From: Terriglobia bacterium
Lineage (GTDB): Bacteria > Acidobacteriota > Terriglobia > UBA7540
Assembly (NCBI GenBank): GCA_020072925.1
Contig: JAIQGA010000090.1
Location: 1 to 38,036 of the forward strand
Length of the DNA: 38,036 nt
Direction of reading: 5' to 3'
The notes under the pieces are model-generated. The model was not told where the DNA came from, searched no databases, and was given only the letters and a program-made list of their open reading frames with translations. The position numbers were made by a program, and so were the translations under genes. Each line of letters begins with the position of its first letter. Position 1 is the stretch's first letter. Positions 459 through 11,996 of this stretch are shown one piece after another.

Positions 459-1697
459 TCATACCGTCACGGGTTCTTTGTCCTCCAACCCGTGGATATC
501 TTCGCTATCGTACAAGGTGCTTTCAGCCTTAAGTGCGTCTACGAGCGCTTTCCGCGGAACTTCGAATTGGTCGTTGTAAACGCCCTTCATCGTCGAAAGT
601 ATGGTGCGGAGACGGGTGGCGGAGGCGGTCTTCGCCCTTTTTTGGAGTGAAAGCCACAGCTTCTTCGGCGTGGCATTGCGACTGCCGTGATGCCCAACCT
701 TGTAGAGGTCTACCGCCTTAAGCTGTGCTGAGACACCGGACTTCTTCAGTGCGCAACTCCAGTTTTCAAGTTGTGCATCTCCCGGAAAGAGCAGCCTCTT
801 GCCTGCGGCCTCGAAAAGCAGAATTACGCTCGTGTTGTTCAGGTAGCTGTCAAGAATACGTACCAGCCCCAATGTTTCTTCCTGGCTCGCCCGCTCGGCA
901 GCCGCAACAAACCAGCGTGCCTCGGCGGGGATGTCCATACCGGACGGGGCCTCGCGCTTTGGACTGGAATTCAGGTAGGCCCATGCGTTCTTGACTGAAA
1001 GCCAATACTCCGGCGAACTGGCCGCATAGGCCAAGGTCCCTGCTTCCGAAAGTGTAGGCGGCCCGAGCATCGTGACCTTCACGCCAGGCAACTCTTTTGA
1101 CAGATCCACCTTATCGCCACTCTTGACATAGGCTGGCTTGCGCTTGCCCATCTGCATCAAGTTCTCAACAGCCGACAGGTTCTTTAATCCGTTCGATCCC
1201 TTGAATTTCAACTCACGCAATTGCGCTGAACCCAAGCTTCCGTAATGGGGAAGCATCGAGTCGACGGAGGCGGCGAAAGCCTGCATCTCCTTCAAGGCGC
1301 TGCGCAGGTGAGCGTGCGCGGCGAGGTCCGGTTGAACCGCATCCGTATCCAAATCGGGGTCTTCGGTCCACGGCTGGATGACGATCTCAGGCTCGCAAGA
1401 GGCAATAATGTCGCCCGAAGCTGTCCCGGCCTTGTTCGTTGCGAATCCGCTAATGTGGTCTTTGTGCCGGTGAGTGGCTACGACCGCCTGTAACTTGCCG
1501 CCACAATCCTTCTTGATCTGCTCGGCAATAAGTTTCATGTGACCTTTAGCGGCGTCCTTCGGCAGCCGGTTGCTGCCAAAGTCGATAAGAACGTGCCGCA
1601 CGTCGCTCGCGGCATAGTGAAAACTCAGGAGGAAGCAGTCCCCAAATCCGACTTTGTACGTGCGCACGGTGATTTTCGTTGGTTTAGAAGAGGGCAT
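459..1697 (-). CDS. ComEC-like metallo-beta-lactamase-fold hydrolase
   Basis: This 412-residue soluble protein has the metal site of the metallo-beta-lactamase fold: HRHKDH at residues 76-81, a Gly-Asp pair in FPGDAQLENW near residue 306, and GHHGSR near residue 336. The HHGS motif is typical of the hydrolase domain of the DNA-uptake protein ComEC and its free-standing relatives. There is no signal peptide and no membrane segment, so it is not a ComEC channel; a cytosolic phosphodiesterase or nuclease role is an inference. The start follows a strong AGGAGG site 6 bases upstream. Its first 14 bases overlap the end of the preceding gene, so it is the last gene of the eight-gene run. The family call is firm; the substrate is unknown. 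Confidence 0.85.
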   Translation of the reverse strand: MPSSKPTKITVRTYKVGFGDCFLLSFHYAASDVRHVLIDFGSNRLPKDAAKGHMKLIAEQIKKDCGGKLQAVVATHRHKDHISGFATNKAGTASGDIIASCEPEIVIQPWTEDPDLDTDAVQPDLAAHAHLRSALKEMQAFAASVDSMLPHYGSLGSAQLRELKFKGSNGLKNLSAVENLMQMGKRKPAYVKSGDKVDLSKELPGVKVTMLGPPTLSEAGTLAYAASSPEYWLSVKNAWAYLNSSPKREAPSGMDIPAEARWFVAAAERASQEETLGLVRILDSYLNNTSVILLFEAAGKRLLFPGDAQLENWSCALKKSGVSAQLKAVDLYKVGHHGSRNATPKKLWLSLQKRAKTASATRLRTILSTMKGVYNDQFEVPRKALVDALKAESTLYDSEDIHGLEDKEPVTV

Positions 1698-2583
1698 CTT
1701 GATCCTCCTGGAGGACCGACCCGCCCATCAAGCGGGCGCGGTGAATTTGCGCAAAGCGTCGAAGACCTGGTCCTCTTTGGCCATACTGGCCGCTCTTCCA
1801 CATGTACGAGAGAAAACGCTCCTGGCGTTCCGCATTCAGGACTTTCTGTTTGACGTGATACTTTGTAGCGCCGTACTCGTCGAACACCAGCACGCCGCCA
1901 CCAAACAGAGTTACGGAAAGATCATCAGGCATCTCTTTTGGTTTCTTGATTCCCAGTGCCTGGAGCTCGCCGGCTGTCACGGTCAATATCTCAACGTATT
2001 CCGAAATGGTCTCGTGGACGACGAACCCGTCCCAGGAGACGCGAACGCACGGGCGGACTGAACGCACCTGCGTGTAAGCCTTTTCGCATAGGTCAAGTGT
2101 CTGGCGGTTCTGCCAGATAAAATGGAAAACTGCATCGGGGTTACTGCGTATCGCCTCGAAGTGCGTGTTGCGATAATCAAGAGGCCCGCTCGGAGGCTCC
2201 CAGAGATTCGGTTCGGCGCCTCTAGTCTTCACGGGTTCGATTCCGTAGGAACTGAATGCCTCCCGCAAAGTGGTTCGATAGTCGAATTTCGAGTCGTCGG
2301 TCTGGACTTCGTAGTCGGCGGTCAGGAATGCGCTGAGGTAATCGGAAAACTCAATTCCCGCGCACGGCGAATAGTCGATGGCGCGGATCGCCATGGTGAG
2401 CAGATGCTCGGCGGCGAGTGCCCCCTGCTCAGCGACGGTCTCGAGATCCACTTCCGGAGTCGTGCCGCCTCCGAGCCTGGCAATCCGCTTCAACCAGATG
2501 CTGAGGAATGCGTTCATAACTGCGGCGACCAGCAATTCTCCACGATCGTGCGGTTCAACCGATTCTTTATCCTTGGCAATCAT
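1684..2583 (-). CDS. C-terminal half of a split gluzincin-type metallopeptidase
   Basis: A protein of about 299 residues that begins MIAKDKESVEPHDRGELLVA. From memory of the family, the region around EPHDRG, the helix LTMAIRAIDYSP and FSDYLSAFLTADYEV resembles the C-terminal part of large bacterial HExxH proteins whose N-terminal half is the gene just upstream. No catalytic motif is visible here. The ATG at 2583 shares its A with the TGA stop of the upstream frame (TGATG), an arrangement typical of translational coupling, and I see no good ribosome-binding site of its own. GTG at 2586 is an alternative start. It overlaps the following MBL gene by 14 bases. It may be a separately made subunit or the product of a frameshifted, partly deleted gene. 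Confidence 0.7.
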   Translation of the reverse strand: MIAKDKESVEPHDRGELLVAAVMNAFLSIWLKRIARLGGGTTPEVDLETVAEQGALAAEHLLTMAIRAIDYSPCAGIEFSDYLSAFLTADYEVQTDDSKFDYRTTLREAFSSYGIEPVKTRGAEPNLWEPPSGPLDYRNTHFEAIRSNPDAVFHFIWQNRQTLDLCEKAYTQVRSVRPCVRVSWDGFVVHETISEYVEILTVTAGELQALGIKKPKEMPDDLSVTLFGGGVLVFDEYGATKYHVKQKVLNAERQERFLSYMWKSGQYGQRGPGLRRFAQIHRARLMGGSVLQEDQDALF

Positions 2584-3260
2584 CACTGACCCGGAAGCAG
2601 ATGACCATTGTCGCGGCCGGTGGTTGAGCCGGAAAGTGAGTGCAGGGCCTTCTTCAAAACTTCGGGCAACGAGAACATCGAAAGCAGCGCAACAATGTCC
2701 CCAAGAGCTTCATGAAAGGCGGCCTGGTCCGGCAATGACGCGTAGAGGTATCCCTCGCGGAGACCGTCAAGCAATGCATGGCTGGTTTCGTGCGCAACGA
2801 CGTCGTGGGAAAGACAGGTATACACGTCGCGTCCGTCCTCAGCTTTGAAATAACCAAAGAATAGCCCCCGGTCACGGCGTGAGTAGAAGGCGTTGGCGCC
2901 CGAAAAAGCATGCGGCGCCACGTAAATCTGGTGGCCCCCTCCAAAGCTCCAGCCCACATTGCGTCCCAGGGCGAGCTCAAACCGCGACAACGTCCGCATC
3001 ACGATGGCGTAGACATTCTGCGCATGAAGGGCGGGATCCCCAATGTCAGCGCTGTTGACCGGCAGTGTGACAGGTGGGTTGAACTTCTTCGTCGAGGTGT
3101 TGTAGTCAACCACGTGGACGCGATAGCCTCGCGGGCCCGGCGCCACGCTCTCGCGGGGAATCTCAACAGTCGCCCAAACGGGTTGACCCGCGATCCACTC
3201 GGCCACAATCCTCAGTTCTTGTGTCGGGTTGATTTTTGCTCTCGCCAATCCTACCTTCAT
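2583..3260 (-). CDS. gluzincin (HExxH) metallopeptidase, catalytic half
   Basis: A 225-residue protein with HETSHALLDGLREG: HExxH at residues 157-161, followed 23 residues later by HEALGD with Glu184 and Asp188. This is the HExxH...ExxxD signature of thermolysin-like gluzincins, in which two His and the downstream Glu bind zinc. There is no signal peptide, so it probably acts in the cytosol. The start has an excellent AAGGAGG site 6 bases upstream. The chain stops soon after the second motif (FSLPEVLKKALHSLSG...), where related proteins as I recall them continue into a helical region found here in the next frame. The usual middle segment appears to be missing. Function is otherwise unknown; the zinc site looks complete, so activity is possible. 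Confidence 0.8.
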   Translation of the reverse strand: MKVGLARAKINPTQELRIVAEWIAGQPVWATVEIPRESVAPGPRGYRVHVVDYNTSTKKFNPPVTLPVNSADIGDPALHAQNVYAIVMRTLSRFELALGRNVGWSFGGGHQIYVAPHAFSGANAFYSRRDRGLFFGYFKAEDGRDVYTCLSHDVVAHETSHALLDGLREGYLYASLPDQAAFHEALGDIVALLSMFSLPEVLKKALHSLSGSTTGRDNGHLLPGQ

Positions 3261-3330
3261 ACAGGACCTCCTTTTACGATCGCGCGCTCTGCTTCATTGG
3301 CGGTTCGTCGTTCGCGCGCGGTTACTTTGA

Positions 3331-4380
3331 CTACAGTCCCTTCTCCTTGACCACTCCCTTGGAATCCACCTCGAAGAGCTTTATCGGCCCTCCTTTCTCA
3401 GGGCTGTCGTCGGTCGCGACAAACGTGCCTGCGAGGCGTTTGGACCGGGAATAAAGGAAGCTGCCATCGTTCCACACTTCGATATCCTTCGGTATGAGTC
3501 GCTTCCCTTTGTCCGACCCAAGGACCGCCGTAGTTGCGTGGCCCGCTTCGTGAGTATGGCCGAAGACAAACACATCAGGCTGCTTATTTCGAAAGTAGCA
3601 AAGGTACATCTCGATAGCTTTCAGCATTTTCACATCGATGGGTTTGTTCCGGAGCTTGCCGATCGCATCGAAAATCGAGCTGATGCTCTTGTAAGCCTTC
3701 TCTACGAACTCGCGAGTGTCCTTCAGGTAGGAGACGGCATTTGCCACCGCCTGGTCCTGGGCCGTGCCGACGAAAAACTTCCGAACCGCCTTCTTCTTGT
3801 TGCCGTTTTCCTTTCGAATGAGCTCGTCAAGGTTCTTGAAGAGTGTCTGCTGCTCGTCCAGGTAGTGTCCGTGCGTGACCAGCACGGCGCGACCTGCCAG
3901 GTCGAACTCATGATCCGGATACACGGCGCAAAATCGGTCTCGGATATTCTCCGGAGCCACTCCCCGAAGGAAGGGCTGGAGAAAGGTTCCCTCGGTGAGC
4001 GGAAGGTTTGTTGGGACTTTTCCCTGGGAGATAGGGTCCACGAAGACCTCATTGGTGGATAGGATGTTCCAGATAATGTAGTCATGATTTCCCGGAATGT
4101 AGACAATGCGCTTGACGTCAAATTTGTTGTCTTCGAAAAGGTGAGCCAGCCAGAACCGGAACCCAATCTGCTTGGGCCATGGGCCCGAACTCTTCTTGCC
4201 CTCAATCGCCCGCGTCAACGACGATATGTTGGCGTCCAGGATGTCGCCGGCCAGAATAAGTTCCTCCACTGGTCCCAGGCCCCACAAAAACGACCGCAGC
4301 CCCATCGCTACGGATTGGTTGCTCAGAGAGCACTGTGGGTCGCCGAAATGCAGGTCAGAAAAGATGACTCGCTTTGCCAT
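3331..4380 (-). CDS. calcineurin-like metallophosphoesterase
   Basis: A 349-residue protein carrying the full set of calcineurin-like phosphoesterase motifs in order: SDLHFGD (residues 8-14), GDILD near 45, GNHDY near 97, THGH near 170 and GHTHEAG near 275. These residues bind two metal ions and hydrolyse phosphomono- or diesters. The region between THGH and GHTH is long and helical (KNLDELIRKENGNKKKAVRKF onward) and probably forms a family-specific cap. No signal peptide is seen. The start follows AAGGGGGG. It lies 51 bases after the glycyl-radical activase gene and 70 bases before the peptidase gene, so co-transcription is likely. The substrate could be a nucleotide, a nucleic acid or UDP-sugar-like; this cannot be told from sequence. 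Confidence 0.88.
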   Translation of the reverse strand: MAKRVIFSDLHFGDPQCSLSNQSVAMGLRSFLWGLGPVEELILAGDILDANISSLTRAIEGKKSSGPWPKQIGFRFWLAHLFEDNKFDVKRIVYIPGNHDYIIWNILSTNEVFVDPISQGKVPTNLPLTEGTFLQPFLRGVAPENIRDRFCAVYPDHEFDLAGRAVLVTHGHYLDEQQTLFKNLDELIRKENGNKKKAVRKFFVGTAQDQAVANAVSYLKDTREFVEKAYKSISSIFDAIGKLRNKPIDVKMLKAIEMYLCYFRNKQPDVFVFGHTHEAGHATTAVLGSDKGKRLIPKDIEVWNDGSFLYSRSKRLAGTFVATDDSPEKGGPIKLFEVDSKGVVKEKGL

Positions 4381-4431: not shown

Positions 4432-5448
4432 TCACAGCTCCCGCTCTTCAGTCAGACACTTCCTAGAGCATGTTGTGGCTTGCTGCTGTGCGGCGAAGGG
4501 CGGTTGTCGGATGGTGCCGGCTGTTCTGATCAACTCATCGGTGTGCTTTGTCGGCTCTGCGATGATGCCCCGGAATATCTTGAAGAGTTCCTGTTCGCGC
4601 TCAGGCGCCGTAAAGCTTGAGGGTAAGTCAGGGACATGCCTGCCCAGGCGACGGTACATGGCGAGACCAAGCGGGTTGTACGGCAGCAACGAGACGTCGT
4701 GGGCTCCCGCCGCGCGGAGAAAGTCGACGATGGCCGCCAGGTTGCCGTAACTGTCGGTGATTCCCGGGATTAATGGAATTCGCACTCGCACCTCGACAGT
4801 ATCCTGTGCCAGTAGCCGCCGAAGGTTATGCAGAATCGACTCGTTCGATTGACTTAAGTAGCGAATACTCTCCGCTCTGTCGGCGAGTTTGAGGTCGATG
4901 AGGACCAAATCCAGATGAGGAAGGATCTTGCGGGAAAATGCTTTCCACTCGAAATGGCCTGACGTCTCGACAGCGACATGAATGTTGTGTGCTTTGAGCC
5001 GCCGCAAAACATCCTGCACGTAAGCCGGGAACATCGTGCATTCACCGCCCGAAAGCGTCACGCCACCGCCGGAATGGCGATAAAAAGCAGCATCTCGCAA
5101 CAATGCCTCGGCAAGTTTTTCTACGGGCCAGTACGCTCCGATCACGCGCAACGCTCCACCTCGGCAGACGGCGGCGCATTGCCCACAGCCGTCGCACCTG
5201 CTCCTATCGATGCGGTCGAAGTTCTCGAGCGCAATGGCGGCGCGTGGACAGGCCTTCACGCACTCGCCGCACTGGATGCAGCGCTCCTCGGCAAAAGCGA
5301 TTTCGGGGCCGGTCTCCTGGGCCTCGGGATTATGGCAGAACGCGCACCGGAGTGGGCATCCCTTGAAAAACGCCACGGTTCGAATTCCCGGGCCGTCCTC
5401 CCTGCTGTCCCGTTTGATGTCGACGATCAGCGGCCGTCGAGTTTCCAT
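4432..5448 (-). CDS. glycyl-radical enzyme activating enzyme (radical SAM)
   Basis: This 338-residue protein begins with DSREDGPGIRTVAFFKGCPLR, and its CPLRCAFC motif (Cys31, Cys35, Cys38) is the CxxxCxxC site for the radical-SAM 4Fe-4S cluster. Two ferredoxin-like clusters follow (Cys57/60/63/67 and Cys85/88/91/95), as in activases of the glycerol-dehydratase and choline-lyase type rather than the short pyruvate formate-lyase activase. SGGECTMFP is the SAM-binding glycine motif. It abstracts a hydrogen from the C-terminal glycine of its partner enzyme to make the stable radical, under anoxic conditions. The start ATG directly follows the TAA of the SCP2-like gene (TAAATG), so translation is probably coupled. 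The partner is the glycyl-radical enzyme two genes upstream. Confidence 0.93.
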   Translation of the reverse strand: METRRPLIVDIKRDSREDGPGIRTVAFFKGCPLRCAFCHNPEAQETGPEIAFAEERCIQCGECVKACPRAAIALENFDRIDRSRCDGCGQCAAVCRGGALRVIGAYWPVEKLAEALLRDAAFYRHSGGGVTLSGGECTMFPAYVQDVLRRLKAHNIHVAVETSGHFEWKAFSRKILPHLDLVLIDLKLADRAESIRYLSQSNESILHNLRRLLAQDTVEVRVRIPLIPGITDSYGNLAAIVDFLRAAGAHDVSLLPYNPLGLAMYRRLGRHVPDLPSSFTAPEREQELFKIFRGIIAEPTKHTDELIRTAGTIRQPPFAAQQQATTCSRKCLTEEREL

Positions 5449-5937
5449 TTAAGCCACGCCCAGACGATGCTGTAAGTCCCTGGCAAGAAAACCGAACTTG
5501 TAGATGTAATTCAAATTTCCATCTACATCGACATCATTGGCGAGGATGGAATCCAAGATGTCCTGGTTCTCAGCGAGGAGAAACCGCCACAGAGCCGGGG
5601 CGTCCTTGAAAGAGACGCGCACCTCGTAGGGTGCCCTGGGTTTGGGATCGACGTCCATGCTGCCATCAGAAAATACAGCCGAACAGCCGACCCGTCCGTC
5701 GTCAGTCCTGAAGACGTACGTTCCGCTAAAACCCTCGATGTTTTCGCGGTAGCCCTTCAAGAGACAGAAGGACGCCTCCATACCTCGGAGCAGCACCTCC
5801 AGGAACTCATCAGTAACTTTTCCGCAGAACTGCTCCGCCAGGGGTTTGCACAGGCGCCGGTGCAGGGAATTGCGAGTCCCTTCCGGAAACACCCTCGAGA
5901 ACGTGCGCAGAGCAAATTTCTTAAGCGTTGTGGCCAT
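5449..5937 (-). CDS. small SCP2-like (sterol-carrier fold) protein
   Basis: A 162-residue protein. The central part (FSGTYVFRTDDGRVGCSAVF, then RVSFKDAPALWRFLLAENQD and GNLNYIYKFGFLARDLQHR) has the pattern of SCP2/alkyl-sulfatase C-terminal domains: alternating strands, a phrase like SFKD...LWRFL, and the closing GNL...K...L helix. Such domains bind hydrophobic ligands or serve as partner domains. The start at 5937 is fixed by AGGAGG 6 bases upstream; longer in-frame starts lie inside the glycyl-radical gene. It overlaps the end of that gene by 17 bases and abuts the activase gene, so all three are probably made together. A role as substrate carrier or chaperone for the radical enzyme is inference. 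The fold assignment is moderate. Confidence 0.75.
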   Translation of the reverse strand: MATTLKKFALRTFSRVFPEGTRNSLHRRLCKPLAEQFCGKVTDEFLEVLLRGMEASFCLLKGYRENIEGFSGTYVFRTDDGRVGCSAVFSDGSMDVDPKPRAPYEVRVSFKDAPALWRFLLAENQDILDSILANDVDVDGNLNYIYKFGFLARDLQHRLGVA

Positions 5938-8482
5938 CGTCGCCTCCTTGGGGCAGCGGGAATGGCTCGTAAAGAACCGCTCGGCCGGTGGAGAGACAAT
6001 ACTCCGTCCGATCGATGATTTCCTTCTGCATCCGGGGATTGAGGTCTTTGAAATACGCCGTGTAGCCGGAGACCCGCACCAGCAACTTGTCATACTGGCT
6101 GGGATCCTTGACGGCCTCAATAAAGTCCTGGTGGGATGTCACATTGAACTGAATTTCCATCCCTCCGCTCGGCTGATCCTGCCTCGCGTCGAAGTATCCT
6201 TTCACGTACGCAACGAACCTGCTGAGCGTTGTCTCCGCGTCGCCGTCGTCAGGCGTGAACTTGAGGTTCACGGCCATACCGTTGTCCACGAATGGTGCGG
6301 GCAACTTGGCGATGGATTGCAGCGCGGCGGTCAGGGACGGTGTGACCCCGGAGTTGGGAGTCAAACCGCTCGAGAAGTTTTCTCCGGCTTTGCGGCCGTT
6401 CGGGGTGGCGCCGATCAACCGGCCAAAGCCGGCATGGTTCGTCATGGTCCAATAGCCGACTCGATAGTTTCCCCCTCGATAGTTTCGCTTGTCCTTAACC
6501 GCCTCGTGGAGCGTCTTCGCGACCCAGAGGGCGTTCCCGTCGGATTGCGGACTGTCGTTGCCGAAGCGTGGCGTCTGTTGCGGATCCTGAATGCGGTCAA
6601 GCAGCCAATCGTAACCCTCGTAGTTCTTCCGGAGGGCGTCGAGGAATTGCGCCAAGGTGAATTGTCCACTGCCAAAGGCGAGCGTTTCGATGGCATTCAG
6701 GGAATCCGCCACATCGGCCAAACCGATGATCGCGATCCCGGAGGCATTCAGGGTCGCTCCGCCCGCAATCAGGTCCTTCCCGCTTTCCATGGGCCCCTCG
6801 AAAAGGGCGGATAGAATCGGTGTTGGGTAGAAGCACTGGTGAATCCTGCCCAGAAGTTCGTTAAGGGCAATGGCCTGCTCAAGGAGCCAAAGCATCTGAC
6901 CTTTGAGCGATTCTCGAAATTGTTCGAAGGTACTGAACGTCGCCGGGTCGCCGGTTTCCAGGCTGATAAGCTTCTCCATCCCAAAGTGCCGATGGCGACC
7001 ATTGAAGAGCGCAAGTTCCAGCGCCGAGGGTAGGTTCACGAGCAAGGCGCCGGAATGGCCATAGAAGCGGCCATTGCTGCCGGGTTCGACGCATCCGATG
7101 ACCCCGTAATCACGCGCCTGTGCCAGGGTGTGCCCGCTGGCGGTCAGCGCCTCAATGACTGCGCGGTCGTTGTGGAGCGCGGGGGTGGCTCGAGTATTCA
7201 GGTTCGCTTCGCATAACCTCCGGAGGTAGGCGTCGTCATGGACCTCGGGATGAAATCGGGCGTTGAGATTGGGGTCGCGCAACATCATCAGCTCGATGGC
7301 CCTGAGCATCACGTAAGTCAGGTCGTTTACGGCGTCGCGTCCTTCCGCGTCGACACCCCCAATCGTGATGGCCTGATTCGAGCCGCTGCCCCCAAAGAGT
7401 TGCTCACCGGCGCTCGGAATCATGGGGACGTGGTCGCCGATCTTCAGCCAGAGATAGCCCAGAAGCTCGACAGCCTGATCCACCGTCAGGCGCTTCGCTT
7501 GGACGTCCCGCGCATACAAGTTGTAAAGAACCTGATCCAGTCGCCCCAGGCTCAACCCCACATTCGCGTTTTCAAGATGGATCGCCGTCCAACAGACCCA
7601 GATTGTCGTGAGCCCTTCGCGAAACGATTCGGCGGGATATTCCGGGACACGGCGATAGATACGCGCAATCTCAGTTAGTTGTGCCTTTTTGATGGGATCG
7701 GCCGCGCTTTCGGCCATCGCAGCGCCAGCATCGGCAATCCTGCGAGCATAGGCGATTATCCCTTCCATCACCTCGCTGATGGCCTGATAGAACTCTTTCT
7801 GGGCTTCGGTCGCAGCCTGGGTTTTTCGCCCATGAGCATCGTCGATGACCGCCCGCAGGCCTTCATTCACGGCGCGAGAGAAGTCGGGGATTGTGTGGGA
7901 GATGCAGTTGGGTTTGCTGGCGAGAAACAAGACGAACTTTTGAAGGAGCTGAATCCTGTTCCGGTCCGCATTATCGCCGCGGGCACGAGCAAGTTCAACG
8001 ATGTTATCCTTGAGCCAATACGGGAAAACGTCTTGGTTCAGTGTTCTGACCTCTTCATCGCTGATGTAATAGGGATTGCTGCCGCGGCGAGTCATCGTCC
8101 ATAGTTCCGGCCACAGTGAGAGGGCCATGAACTCGGGGTACAGGGGCACGCCCTTGAACTTGCTCGTCGTTGAACCCGCGAAGGGCGAACTGCCGTCGAA
8201 GACAAACTCCTCCAAGCCGCTGGGAGTCCGCTGGTGAGCCTTCGTGTGCTCGATGACCGGAAACCGATTTTCCAGGATTTTTCGGTACAAACGGCCTTTG
8301 TCGAGCACACTGATCCTGTCGCGCCCAAAGAGCCCTGCTTCCCGGCTGAACTTCGTGATCAGCAGGGGCCGCTCGGTGCAGATCTCAGGCACAGCCCGGA
8401 AATAGGCCTCGCGCAGCGCCGCGAGTTGCGGCCCGAGTTTGATGTCCCGAAGCGAAAGATCGCGCACCGTAATGCTACTCAT
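5921..8482 (-). CDS. glycyl-radical enzyme, dehydratase/lyase-type (CxE), substrate unknown
   Basis: An 853-residue protein with both halves of the glycyl-radical enzyme family: a PFL-like domain and a C-terminal glycine-radical loop RVSGYTAYF with the radical Gly at about residue 806, 47 residues from the end. The active-site Cys is about residue 464 in GCVEPGSNGRF. The Cys-x-Glu arrangement is that of glycerol/propanediol dehydratases and choline TMA-lyase, where Glu acts as base. Pyruvate formate-lyase has two adjacent Cys instead. The reaction is therefore probably elimination of water or another leaving group. It is cytosolic, and there are no microcompartment genes nearby. The start follows AAGGGAGGG. 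The neighbours SCP2-like and activase overlap or abut it. The family is certain; the substrate is not deducible. Confidence 0.93.
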   Translation of the reverse strand: MSSITVRDLSLRDIKLGPQLAALREAYFRAVPEICTERPLLITKFSREAGLFGRDRISVLDKGRLYRKILENRFPVIEHTKAHQRTPSGLEEFVFDGSSPFAGSTTSKFKGVPLYPEFMALSLWPELWTMTRRGSNPYYISDEEVRTLNQDVFPYWLKDNIVELARARGDNADRNRIQLLQKFVLFLASKPNCISHTIPDFSRAVNEGLRAVIDDAHGRKTQAATEAQKEFYQAISEVMEGIIAYARRIADAGAAMAESAADPIKKAQLTEIARIYRRVPEYPAESFREGLTTIWVCWTAIHLENANVGLSLGRLDQVLYNLYARDVQAKRLTVDQAVELLGYLWLKIGDHVPMIPSAGEQLFGGSGSNQAITIGGVDAEGRDAVNDLTYVMLRAIELMMLRDPNLNARFHPEVHDDAYLRRLCEANLNTRATPALHNDRAVIEALTASGHTLAQARDYGVIGCVEPGSNGRFYGHSGALLVNLPSALELALFNGRHRHFGMEKLISLETGDPATFSTFEQFRESLKGQMLWLLEQAIALNELLGRIHQCFYPTPILSALFEGPMESGKDLIAGGATLNASGIAIIGLADVADSLNAIETLAFGSGQFTLAQFLDALRKNYEGYDWLLDRIQDPQQTPRFGNDSPQSDGNALWVAKTLHEAVKDKRNYRGGNYRVGYWTMTNHAGFGRLIGATPNGRKAGENFSSGLTPNSGVTPSLTAALQSIAKLPAPFVDNGMAVNLKFTPDDGDAETTLSRFVAYVKGYFDARQDQPSGGMEIQFNVTSHQDFIEAVKDPSQYDKLLVRVSGYTAYFKDLNPRMQKEIIDRTEYCLSTGRAVLYEPFPLPQGGDDGHNA

Positions 8483-8569: not shown

Positions 8570-9262
8570 TCAATAGCCCGTGCAGAATTGGAAATGCATG
8601 GGGTCTTTGCTTCGTCCCGCCCAGTCTCCTCCCCATTTGAAGCCGAACTCCTGGAAGACGTCCACCACTGCGGGATCCATATCCCCGGAACTCCCCAAAG
8701 GATTTGAGTCCGGATTTAAGTCGATGGCTATCCCCCAACTGTGGGTGGAGAGTTTTCCGCTGGTCCGCTTGCTGCGAAAACTGAAACATCCTCCGTAGGT
8801 CCGGATGCTATTCTTCAGACCCTTTTCATCGATGGCTTTGAAAACGCCGGCAAGGGTATCAATCAATTTGACATGACACTGCACCCCCTTGACCGATTGC
8901 GAAAGGTCCCACGACAAGGCGATAGGGAAGGGAAGAGGAACCCGTCCCAGTTGGCTTTCTTCCCAGCGCGGGTCAAGGTTTCCGTCCTCACGTATAAACT
9001 CAAAGATATTTCCAAACGTGGCGAGGATAGCCGGCAGGCCGTTAGGAGGGGCGAGCCCCGCGGGAGGGACGACCGGCGGTTGCGTCGCTCCCTCCAGTTC
9101 ACGTCGTGAGGGAATCTCGAGGATCTGGCCTACCCGGATCAAGTCCGCATTCCGAATCCCGTTGTACTCTGCCAGCTTCACGTAGAGCTCGCTTTCCCCA
9201 TAGAACTTTCGCGCGATCTCTGCGAGCGTATCTCCCGCGCGAAGAGCATAACGGCTTACCAC
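8570..9262 (-). CDS. LysM domain plus M15-type (VanY-like) peptidase
   Basis: A 230-residue protein. A LysM module (residues 5-51, YALRAGDTLAEIARKFYGES to QILEIP) is followed by a proline-rich linker and an M15 peptidase domain. Its zinc ligands are visible as STHSWGIAIDLNP (His174, Asp181) and DPMHFQF (His223). LysM binds peptidoglycan or chitin; M15 enzymes cleave D-Ala-containing peptides of the wall. The start is chosen as GTG 9262, 5 bases after AGGAGG; the longer GTG at 9268 sits on the Shine-Dalgarno itself. No signal peptide is present, so export would need another route or lysis. It leads the - strand run, 87 bases before the glycyl-radical gene. It resembles endolysin-like enzymes, but no phage genes are near. 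Confidence 0.87.
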   Translation of the reverse strand: MVSRYALRAGDTLAEIARKFYGESELYVKLAEYNGIRNADLIRVGQILEIPSRRELEGATQPPVVPPAGLAPPNGLPAILATFGNIFEFIREDGNLDPRWEESQLGRVPLPFPIALSWDLSQSVKGVQCHVKLIDTLAGVFKAIDEKGLKNSIRTYGGCFSFRSKRTSGKLSTHSWGIAIDLNPDSNPLGSSGDMDPAVVDVFQEFGFKWGGDWAGRSKDPMHFQFCTGY

Positions 9263-10193
9263 AGACACCTCCTGGCGTCACACGATTCTTCCGACCCTCC
9301 CTCGCCTCTGTGATTTAGTACATGGGGGATTCGGCCGGGTGAGGGACTGTCATGCTGGGTGATTTCCATCCTCCTTGGGCGCCCACCCCGGCGCATCCTA
9401 AGCACCGGCGAACTTCGGTCGGCCCTGCGGTACGATTTTTCCCGAGCGTCGCGAGTGCTCAGCGGCTAGGCCAAGCCAGGCGGTAATGGGTCGGTTTTCA
9501 GTCGTTGGGTCATTAGCTGGCCTTTGTACGCCCTCGCTTCCAAGCCCTGAGGCTTCGGGTCCAGCGTCCGGAAGGGTTATTGTTCGTACATACTAAACTG
9601 GTAAAGGTATACGCTGGGCTTTGGAAGTTGTCAAGGCAAAAAGTGGGAATGCCGGCGACCCACAAGCGCCGATTCCCGCCCCGTATGGTCATAGACGGAC
9701 CCTGGTGTGGTCGAATATTGACAACCATCAAAGGCCGAGGCTGCGCAATTGCGGCTCGTGGTGAGCGTTTTGGCGTCGTATCGGATTCCTGCGAACTCCC
9801 GGCTAACAATCGGTGGACAAGATTGCCCTTGACAACCTGCTTGAGTCTCTGTCATAAGGCATAATAACATCTCGATATACGCTGCCCCTCGCCGCACGAA
9901 CTGCCAGAAAGGATCCTGCAATGATCCTTTGCGTCCGTGTCCCCGGTTTCTCCATTCCGCTTGAGTTCCGACTCAAAATGACAGCCAGTGGGGCGGGTCC
10001 GACACTTCACGATTTGCCCTTTGCCCAGCGCGGAGGCGCCCAAGCAGGGACGCGGCCCGGCGCGCCGGAGGCACGCAGCGGAGACCTCTGCCCGGCCTAC
10101 GCGCGCGCCTGCCTGGTGTGCGCGGCGTGGCCACCGCGGGGATGATTTGACCACCTGTTAAGCTCGCGAAACTGATACCACGGAGGTGTGAGA
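9263..10193. other. 0.93-kb divergent intergenic region
   Basis: The start regions of the - strand run and of the 600-residue protein gene face each other across this stretch. No reading frame in it has both a ribosome-binding site and protein-like composition. A promoter for each direction is expected here, but I could not fix one. There is a TTGACA at 9829-9834 and a CATAAT at 9860-9865, but the 25-base spacing is too long for a standard sigma-70 promoter. An exact inverted repeat lies at 9908-9930 and a 12-base palindrome, CCGGCGCGCCGG, at 10057-10068. The segment from about 10020 to 10140 is very GC-rich. Confidence 0.6.
9908..9930. repeat. inverted repeat, possible operator or hairpin
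   Basis: AAAGGATC, a 7-base spacer, then GATCCTTT: a perfect 8-base inverted repeat. It is 264 bases upstream of the start of the duplicated-domain gene, in the divergent intergenic region. It could be a regulator-binding site or an RNA hairpin. No T-run follows, so it is not a clear terminator. No regulator gene is nearby. Confidence 0.5.
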
Positions 10194-11996
10194 ATGCCGG
10201 CTTCCAACTTCAAAACCCTTACCTGCCTGGAGGGGAAAAAGGGGCAGGACCCCTTGCTGGACGAGATTCGCCACGACGTTGAGTCCAGCTCAGTCCTTGA
10301 GGCGATGAAGGCCTACATCATCCAACTCAGCGGTAAGTTGGATAACGATGCCCGCCCGTACCGAAAGATCGCTCGGCTCTTTGAAGTTGGGTTCACGCCG
10401 ACTGTTATCGAGGGGCACCACGATGGCATAACGCTCGGCCTTCGGACAGGCGATGAGCGAGGGTTGCTCGCCTCGTACGGAAACTTCCTCGGGTTTCTCT
10501 GGGGCACCGTCGTGGGCCCCGTTTCGCCATGGGTGGGAAAGTCCTTTCATCCGGTGAGTCCGGGCGTCCTCGCAAACTATACCGATGGCTTCGAGCGCGG
10601 CCAAACCCCCACTTATCTGGGGATAAATCATTTCGAGAAGGTGGAGGACTCTGCTGTCAACGCGCTGAGCCTTTCCATCCTCACCTTCTGGATGCACTTG
10701 AAGGATGCCCCTCAGGAGGAGACAGACCGCTACGGGCATAACAAGGACGGTGCATTCTTCATCGCGCGGCGAGCGCAATCGGTTTATCGGGAAAGCAAGC
10801 GAGAGGTTTTCCAGCTCAACTATCGCTGGCACAATTTGGGGAACCTTCCTCCCAACAGTTACCTCATCGATGAGTTGGTTCAAATCACGGACGGAGTTTA
10901 TCTGGGACAACTCCTGTACGCCACCAAGCACCTGCTGGGCCGATTCGATCCGAATTACCCGAGTGAGGAATACGATTACCAGCATTTTGGCTACTTCCTC
11001 CTTATGGACGACACCTGGGCGAGCGAAACGCGAAGGGTTTTCCCCAACATCAAGCCGGGTCGCATAACGAGTCCAACCAGGATGGCTATCGTCGCCGGCC
11101 AGCCACGTTCCACTCGGCAAGCCGTCGCCATATCGCCCCCGAAGTTCACGACTTTTACATTTGCCGACCCGGCCGATGGAAACTGCAGCGACGGCACCCT
11201 GGCGGAGATCCGGGAGGACATGAAGCAACACGAAACGATCCTCGACCTGCTCAAAACCTACTCAGACCAACTCATGAAGGATTTCGACAATCGTTCTGAT
11301 TCCTTCTTGAAGCTGCATGAGCTGTTCAATCGGGGCGTGGGCCCGGAGGAAGTGAGTGGATTCTTCCGTGGCGCCGTCATCTCCTTTCATGCCGAAGGCT
11401 TTTACCGCTTCTTTAACGTCAACACGTTGAATGTGGGTTGGCAACTGGGCAGGTACTTCTCACCCTGGACTGGCAAAACGTTCGAGCCCATCAGCCCCGA
11501 GCGCTTGCAGGACTTCACCGACGGAGGGGAACAAGGAGCGGCGCCCACCTTTTGGGGGACCAACACGCAATCCTTCAAAACTACCAAGCAGAAGCTGGTC
11601 AGAGCGATGATGAAAGCCGCGGGCATCTGGATGGAAGATGTCCCTGCGGAGGAAGCGCAGCAATTCGGCTATGACGTCAAGTGCTTCTTCTTCATCGCGC
11701 GTCAGGGCGCCTCCGTCAATCCCGAGAATCGAGGCAAGAAGGTTTTTCTTTTCAACTACCGATGGCCAAAGCTCCGAACGCTTCCGCCCGATAATTACTG
11801 TATCGACGAACTGGTGAAAATTGCGGACGGCCTGTATCTGGGCCAACTGAATTACGCGACGGAACTCCTGAAGAAATACGATCCCAAAGAAGATCCTTCC
11901 ATTTATAAGTATCGCCTGTTCGGGTATTTCCTTCTTATGGATGAGGCGTGGCATCGTCGCAGGCTGGCCATTGGGCTTGATCCGTATGAGGACTAG
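10194..11996 (+). CDS. 600-residue protein of two tandem copies of an unrecognised domain
   Basis: The protein consists of two diverged copies of one domain, about 313 residues apart (roughly 24-276 and 338-587). Matching blocks are EIRHDVESSSVLEAMKAYII / EIREDMKQHETILDLLKTYS, SPWVGKSFHPVSP / SPWTGKTFEPISP, FQLNYRWHNLGNLPPNSYLI / FLFNYRWPKLRTLPPDNYCI, DGVYLGQLLYAT / DGLYLGQLNYAT and FGYFLLMDDTW / FGYFLLMDEAW. No signal peptide, membrane segment or catalytic motif is apparent. The conserved aromatic, Gly-rich blocks suggest a beta-rich ligand-binding fold, but this is a guess. ATG 10194 is preferred because GGAGG lies 7 bases before it; GTG 10188 overlaps that site. It is first of four + strand genes. 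I do not recognise the family. Confidence 0.85.
   Translation: MPASNFKTLTCLEGKKGQDPLLDEIRHDVESSSVLEAMKAYIIQLSGKLDNDARPYRKIARLFEVGFTPTVIEGHHDGITLGLRTGDERGLLASYGNFLGFLWGTVVGPVSPWVGKSFHPVSPGVLANYTDGFERGQTPTYLGINHFEKVEDSAVNALSLSILTFWMHLKDAPQEETDRYGHNKDGAFFIARRAQSVYRESKREVFQLNYRWHNLGNLPPNSYLIDELVQITDGVYLGQLLYATKHLLGRFDPNYPSEEYDYQHFGYFLLMDDTWASETRRVFPNIKPGRITSPTRMAIVAGQPRSTRQAVAISPPKFTTFTFADPADGNCSDGTLAEIREDMKQHETILDLLKTYSDQLMKDFDNRSDSFLKLHELFNRGVGPEEVSGFFRGAVISFHAEGFYRFFNVNTLNVGWQLGRYFSPWTGKTFEPISPERLQDFTDGGEQGAAPTFWGTNTQSFKTTKQKLVRAMMKAAGIWMEDVPAEEAQQFGYDVKCFFFIARQGASVNPENRGKKVFLFNYRWPKLRTLPPDNYCIDELVKIADGLYLGQLNYATELLKKYDPKEDPSIYKYRLFGYFLLMDEAWHRRRLAIGLDPYED

Follow-up and report, generated by a model that had tools for sequence, protein, structure and literature searches.

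The window analysed here is the whole 38,036 nt stretch of contig JAIQGA010000090.1 from a Terriglobia bacterium (Acidobacteriota), in which an initial annotation had described a glycyl-radical enzyme (GRE) with an SCP2-like protein wedged between it and its activase. The genes and features concerned are as follows.

3331..4380, minus strand: calcineurin-like phosphoesterase, 349 aa; 51 bp downstream of the activase gene.
4432..5448, minus strand: radical-SAM GRE activase, 338 aa, with CxxxCxxC (Cys31/35/38) and two ferredoxin-type 4Fe-4S motifs.
5449..5937, minus strand: SCP2-like protein gene, 162 aa; assigned from a family alignment of 43, an AlphaFold model and Foldseek matches.
5943..5949, minus strand: Shine-Dalgarno sequence AAGGAGG, 5 nt before the ATG of the small gene; read off the sequence.
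5921..8482, minus strand: GRE gene, 853 aa, with its TAA stop at 5923-5921; assigned from Pfam domains and 80% identical homologues.
10188..11996, plus strand: 602 aa protein made of two similar ~280 aa halves; divergently transcribed.

The small gene starts inside the 3′ end of the GRE gene, with an overlap of 17 bp (5921-5937), and meets the activase gene at a junction of 0 bp (5449/5448), so that the ORF coordinates (5449-8482), the overlap and the abutting activase are all as initially annotated. The activase itself scores 291.6 bits against TIGR02494 (PFLE_PFLC subfamily), above the NCBIfam cut-off of 174.35.

By its sequence, the 853 aa protein is a member of the PFL-like glycyl-radical enzyme superfamily, matching PF02901 (PFL-like) with 473 bits (E-value 1.9e-141; cut-off 24.3) and PF01228 (Gly_radical) with 66 bits (E-value 4.3e-18; cut-off 22.2). 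The motif GCVEP provides Cys464 (7093-7091) and Glu466 (7087-7085), and the loop RVSGY provides Gly806 (6067-6065), on which the radical is predicted to reside; the initial annotation had placed all three residues correctly. Both the C-x-E motif and the radical Gly are retained in all 45 aligned GREs that are linked to an SCP2-like domain, the loop reading RISGY in those with an N-terminal fusion (see below). The same motif had been taken to indicate a dehydratase or lyase. The motif stands, but arylacetate decarboxylases also carry C-x-E, so that the motif alone does not imply a dehydratase and, as far as sequence goes, leaves both eliminations and decarboxylations possible for the window GRE. 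Moreover, the protein lies outside any named cluster, placement in which would have spoken against the initial annotation: in NCBIfam it falls far below every equivalog cut-off, including those for the choline TMA-lyase CutC (TIGR04394; 397.7 bits against a cut-off of 1050) and the trans-4-hydroxy-L-proline dehydratase HypD (NF043068; 376.9 bits against 1100), and its identity to five solved or characterised reference GREs is at most 32%. In a plasmid collection, the best relatives, cutC included, were ~31% identical.

With the B12-independent glycerol and 1,2-propanediol dehydratases (GD and PD; 1r8w, 9rco), the window GRE shares the barrel, C-x-E, the glycyl radical loop and a conserved histidine. 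A barrel model of a natural fusion from the same clade (L050; mean pLDDT 80.8) found glycerol dehydratase as its best match, with a TM-score of 0.93 at 28% identity, and alignment of the window GRE with GD pairs His164, Cys433 and Glu435 with His196, Cys464 and Glu466, all kept. At ~31% identity, the window protein differs from these dehydratases in having an added SCP2-like subunit and in carrying Val308, Gly309 and Gly478 in place of GD His281, Ser282 and Asp447. In GD, His281 and Ser282 bind the diol and Asp447 is catalytic. Across the SCP2-linked clade, position 478 is Gly, Ala, Ser, Asn or Thr and in no case Asp, whereas Asp is found in GD, PD, the PFL-2 of Archaeoglobus fulgidus and several of the SCP2-less GREs tested. 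With all three residues replaced, handling of a 1,2-diol in the manner of GD or PD appears unlikely for the window GRE on sequence grounds. CutC, which is among the top sequence matches, is alike in its C-x-E motif, its GRE fold and the position of Thr502, where the window GRE has Ser; it differs in its overall identity (30%), in Asp216, which is replaced by His196, and in the BMC and cut genes, which are absent near the window locus. The closest of the five references is A. fulgidus PFL-2 (2f3o; 31.5% identity), a GRE of unknown function, which nevertheless falls outside the SCP2-linked clade.

As a single sequence, the small protein had no match in Pfam, NCBIfam or PDB sequence searches. Its score against PF02036 (SCP2) was 12.6 bits, below the gathering cut-off of 21.3, and weak matches to this family (E-value ≤ 1) were seen in 22 of the 43 members of its family alignment, the best being 2.1e-4 and still sub-threshold. 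An AlphaFold2 model (pLDDT 68.5 overall, mostly 70-85 in the core) predicts a helix, four strands, further helices, a strand and a last helix, with uncertain N-terminal helices (residues 1-40). When this model was compared with the PDB using Foldseek, 31 matches were returned at E-value ≤ 1e-3 with a probability of 1.00, every one of them to an entry with an SCP2 or SCP2-like domain, including the alkylsulfatases Pisa1, SdsA1 and YjcS, AF1534, UbiJ-SCP2 and both animal and yeast SCP2; TM-scores, normalised by query, were modest (0.40-0.54). It is thus well supported by modelling that the small protein adopts an SCP2 fold, whilst formal membership of the Pfam family is not reached, and the 'SCP2-like' label of the initial annotation is upheld by the fold search together with the sub-threshold family matches. 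Within the family, 43 alignment positions are hydrophobic in at least 95% of members, and the N-terminal region is variable in length and missing in some. Used alone as a query against ~400 genomes of the phylum, the window small protein (P0002) yielded no further match because its relatives are sparse and divergent; a search of viral contigs returned no relatives.

The pairing of the two genes recurs far beyond the window. Two genomes from another family of Terriglobia, one of them the MAG SRVP_39, carry the trio in the same order, with identities of 80, 76 and 67% for the GRE, the small protein and the activase, respectively. A scan of GTDB genomes, which used the GRE as its only query and hence was unbiased by the small gene, returned 44 loci with 42-80% identity to the window GRE in at least seven phyla (Acidobacteriota, Planctomycetota, Nitrospirota, Nitrospinota, Gemmatimonadota, Armatimonadota and Desulfobacterota). 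Together with the window and L028 these make 46 distinct loci. A separate SCP2-like gene lies immediately 3′ of the GRE gene on the same strand in 43 of them, save that one small membrane-protein gene intervenes at L055; in two more (L050, 1023 aa, and L069) the SCP2-like domain is fused to the C-terminus of the GRE; and at the last, L061, the contig stops 126 bp past the GRE gene. An SCP2-like gene or fused domain accompanies every close homologue with sufficient contig, whereas its absence beside all of them would have spoken against the initial annotation. An activase gene adjoins the pair in 38 of the 46 loci, and in the window and most other loci the small gene sits between the GRE and activase genes. 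Exactly one standalone homologue of the small protein was found per genome in all 15 genomes tested with the profile, which was built from trimmed sequences of the 43-member alignment. Run against 15 loci of SCP2-less GREs, most of them with an adjacent activase, the same profile gave no match (best E-value 6.8). Recurrence of the trio in two Terriglobia genomes and in more than 40 further loci means that the pairing is not a matter of chance, and a partnership between the GRE and the SCP2-like protein is strongly supported. Many of the host lineages come from groundwater, sediment and soil.

The SCP2-like profile was additionally run on 395 Desulfobacterota genomes, 41 of which gave a match. 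About half of these matches were standalone genes, and the others lay in ORFs of ~1000 aa. In the ORFs inspected (~980-1020 aa), the SCP2-like domain is N-terminal and the remainder is a GRE, 37-42% identical to the window GRE (P0001), with up to four copies per genome. Such N-fused GREs (L106, L107, L112 and L115-L121) occur several to a genome, where as many as 11 GRE matches were counted, and frequently have no adjoining activase gene (L106, L107). The multiplicity of copies suggests catabolic diversification rather than core biosynthesis. Three Desulfobacterota genomes have the small gene with no intact GRE: at L113 (3833-4520), a decayed locus, an internal deletion has brought the first part of the GRE gene up against mid-sequence of the SCP2-like gene; at L109 only the final ~70 GRE residues are left; and at L114 the small gene and activase are present with no upstream GRE. 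These three look like decay or assembly breaks.

In a maximum-likelihood tree of 65 GREs (quick method, SH-aLRT support), all 45 SCP2-linked sequences, comprising 32 with a separate gene, two C-fused and 11 N-fused, form one clade with a support of 100 on a long branch. Outside it lie GD, PD, CutC, HypD, A. fulgidus PFL-2 and 15 SCP2-less GREs, HypD clustering with L006, L007 and L018. The N-fusions make up a single sub-clade (support 99), whilst the two C-fusions are separate events. All three genes of the trio are under purifying selection (dN/dS 0.08-0.26; for the window comparison dS is near saturation), with values of 0.08-0.13 for the small gene. Furthermore, identities between GREs and between their small proteins correlate across 31 loci (r = 0.91), a relationship that shared ancestry alone could explain. 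The clade is best read as one in which the GRE has an obligate SCP2-like domain, supplied by a gene just downstream or by fusion at either the N- or the C-terminus. GREs and SCP2 proteins are both already known, and no GRE-SCP2 pairing is described in the open-access literature searched, in agreement with the statement in the initial annotation that no characterised GRE has such a partner; the clade and its obligate partner thus appear to be undescribed in that literature. Searches of the same literature on ether lipids and GREs found no link, and papers on the GREs of limonene and benzene degraders, which deal with fumarate-adding enzymes or other systems and nowhere bring up SCP2, were set aside.

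The reading we favour, and consider probable, is that these GREs form an uncharacterised clade served by a dedicated SCP2-like subunit, which presents a hydrophobic substrate. The activase would install the radical at Gly806, from where it would pass to Cys464 as a thiyl radical, with Glu466 as the base. The cavity of the SCP2-like subunit would hold a hydrophobic or amphipathic substrate, solubilising it or extracting it from the membrane, and would make it available to the barrel of the GRE, where it would undergo radical elimination (a dehydration or another lyase step) or decarboxylation. The physical complex, the binding of a ligand, the hydrophobic nature of the substrate and the type of reaction are what we infer. 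A substrate that is lipid-like or aromatic, or a function of the small protein as carrier, as suggested in the initial annotation, would suit the modelled SCP2 fold and the lost diol-binding residues, and such a carrier is proposed by analogy with UbiJ and UbiT of ubiquinone synthesis (PMC6747719). The SCP2 domain of UbiJ, one of the top PDB matches, binds hydrophobic ubiquinone intermediates; UbiT serves O2-independent hydroxylases, and a fusion of ubiT and ubiU has been reported (PMC6747719). The resemblance is one of fold, with no detectable membership of a common sequence family, and the partner here is a GRE instead of UbiU or UbiV. The top structural match (E-value 8e-6) is the SCP2-like C-terminal domain of the alkylsulfatases SdsA1 and Pisa1, which is likewise tied to an enzyme acting on long-chain alkyl compounds; identity is only ~19%, and the partner domain there has a metallo-beta-lactamase fold. 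A bolder version, in which the whole clade handles lipid-like or polyprenyl/alkyl substrates, all collected and delivered by the SCP2-like carrier in trans or as a fused domain, is put forward tentatively, at somewhat less than an even chance. The genes adjoining the trio name no substrate, hydrophobic or otherwise.

SCP2 domains can also be scaffolds or membrane adaptors instead of carriers. The protein might play a structural or regulatory part without handling any ligand, stabilising the GRE or gating substrate entry, in which case the substrate need not be hydrophobic. Small accessory subunits are found in other GREs, 4-hydroxyphenylacetate decarboxylase and benzylsuccinate synthase among them, albeit with an unrelated fold; MasD and BSS, both multisubunit complexes, are among the PDB entries matched, and obligate linkage with occasional fusion would suit a structural subunit as well as it suits a carrier. 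Nevertheless, the predicted fold is that of a family that binds hydrophobic ligands, the conserved core is largely hydrophobic, and attachment through a linker at either terminus is more easily reconciled with a tethered domain for delivery than with a single fixed interface, and we regard such a structural or regulatory subunit as unlikely. Rather improbable is a membrane anchor that docks the GRE at the inner membrane, where the enzyme would directly modify a membrane-resident molecule. For UbiJ-UbiK2 such docking has been proposed, with modelling that indicates close interaction with the membrane (PMC9499169). The predicted helical N-terminus of the small protein and the lipoprotein-like and membrane proteins that adjoin the trio in related loci would also suit an anchor; the N-terminal region in question is, however, the part of the protein that varies in length and is missing in some members. 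We give very little credence to the ideas that the protein guards the radical, is a spare part or serves the activase as an adaptor, for which the position of the small gene between the GRE and activase genes might be cited. The protein has no glycyl-radical motif, so that it is not a spare part of the GrcA type, the lack of adjacent activase genes beside many N-fused GREs ties it to the GRE rather than to the activase, and nothing was found in support of the guard role considered in the initial annotation. Finally, functionless genomic hitch-hiking, to which the three genomes that retain a small gene with no intact GRE might be attributed, is effectively refuted by the linkage in 45 of 46 loci from at least seven phyla, by two C-fusion events and one N-fusion clade, and by the monophyly of the linked GREs. 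In sum, the observation made in the initial annotation is confirmed and its interpretation partly supported.

For many GRE families no substrate is known; the others act mostly on small polar molecules or hydrocarbons. The SCP2 fold of an obligate subunit is a direct pointer to the substrate class of this clade, and the natural one-chain fusions are forms that can be expressed and co-activated. If the bolder version above is borne out, it would make this the first GRE system in which a carrier is dedicated to a hydrophobic substrate. The clade could also bring to light an as yet unrecognised anaerobic step by which lipids, quinones, hydrocarbons or aromatics are turned over. For annotation, the clade can be marked by its SCP2-like partner, His196 and the lack of Asp following GCVE.

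The initial annotation had also remarked that no microcompartment lies near the GRE, which is true for the window. An unrelated-looking BMC locus occurs on another contig of the same genome (L137, G000:C147:8000-26480), with five BMC domain matches and aldolase-, PduL- and acetate-kinase (AckA)-like genes but no GRE, and a microcompartment role for the window GRE was rejected. Two neighbouring proteins are probable accessories. A phosphoesterase is found in 13 of the 46 loci, in most of which its gene immediately precedes that of the GRE and shares its strand. Homologues of the 602 aa two-halves protein likewise occur near the trio in 13 of 46, as half-length tandem genes in L054 and with lipoprotein-like N-termini in several Desulfobacterota; its conserved part has no Pfam domain and a PDB search gave no match. 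Other recurring neighbours are small membrane proteins (nine loci), DUF6765 proteins (eight) and papain-family peptidases (three). DUF6765 (PF20551), of which no mention was found in the open-access literature searched, lies beside the trio at, for example, L049:4221-5297, L067:8705-9799 and L065:6540-7634. In the window, the activase gene is followed on the minus strand (459-4380) by genes for the phosphoesterase, a weakly matching M4-type metallopeptidase, a 300 aa protein of unknown type and a weakly matching beta-lactamase-fold protein, a run with short gaps and overlaps that looks like one operon. Upstream of the GRE (8570-9268, minus strand) is a gene for a LysM and M15_4 carboxypeptidase-like protein, a homologue of which lies near a Nitrospirota GRE (L038:6124-6810).
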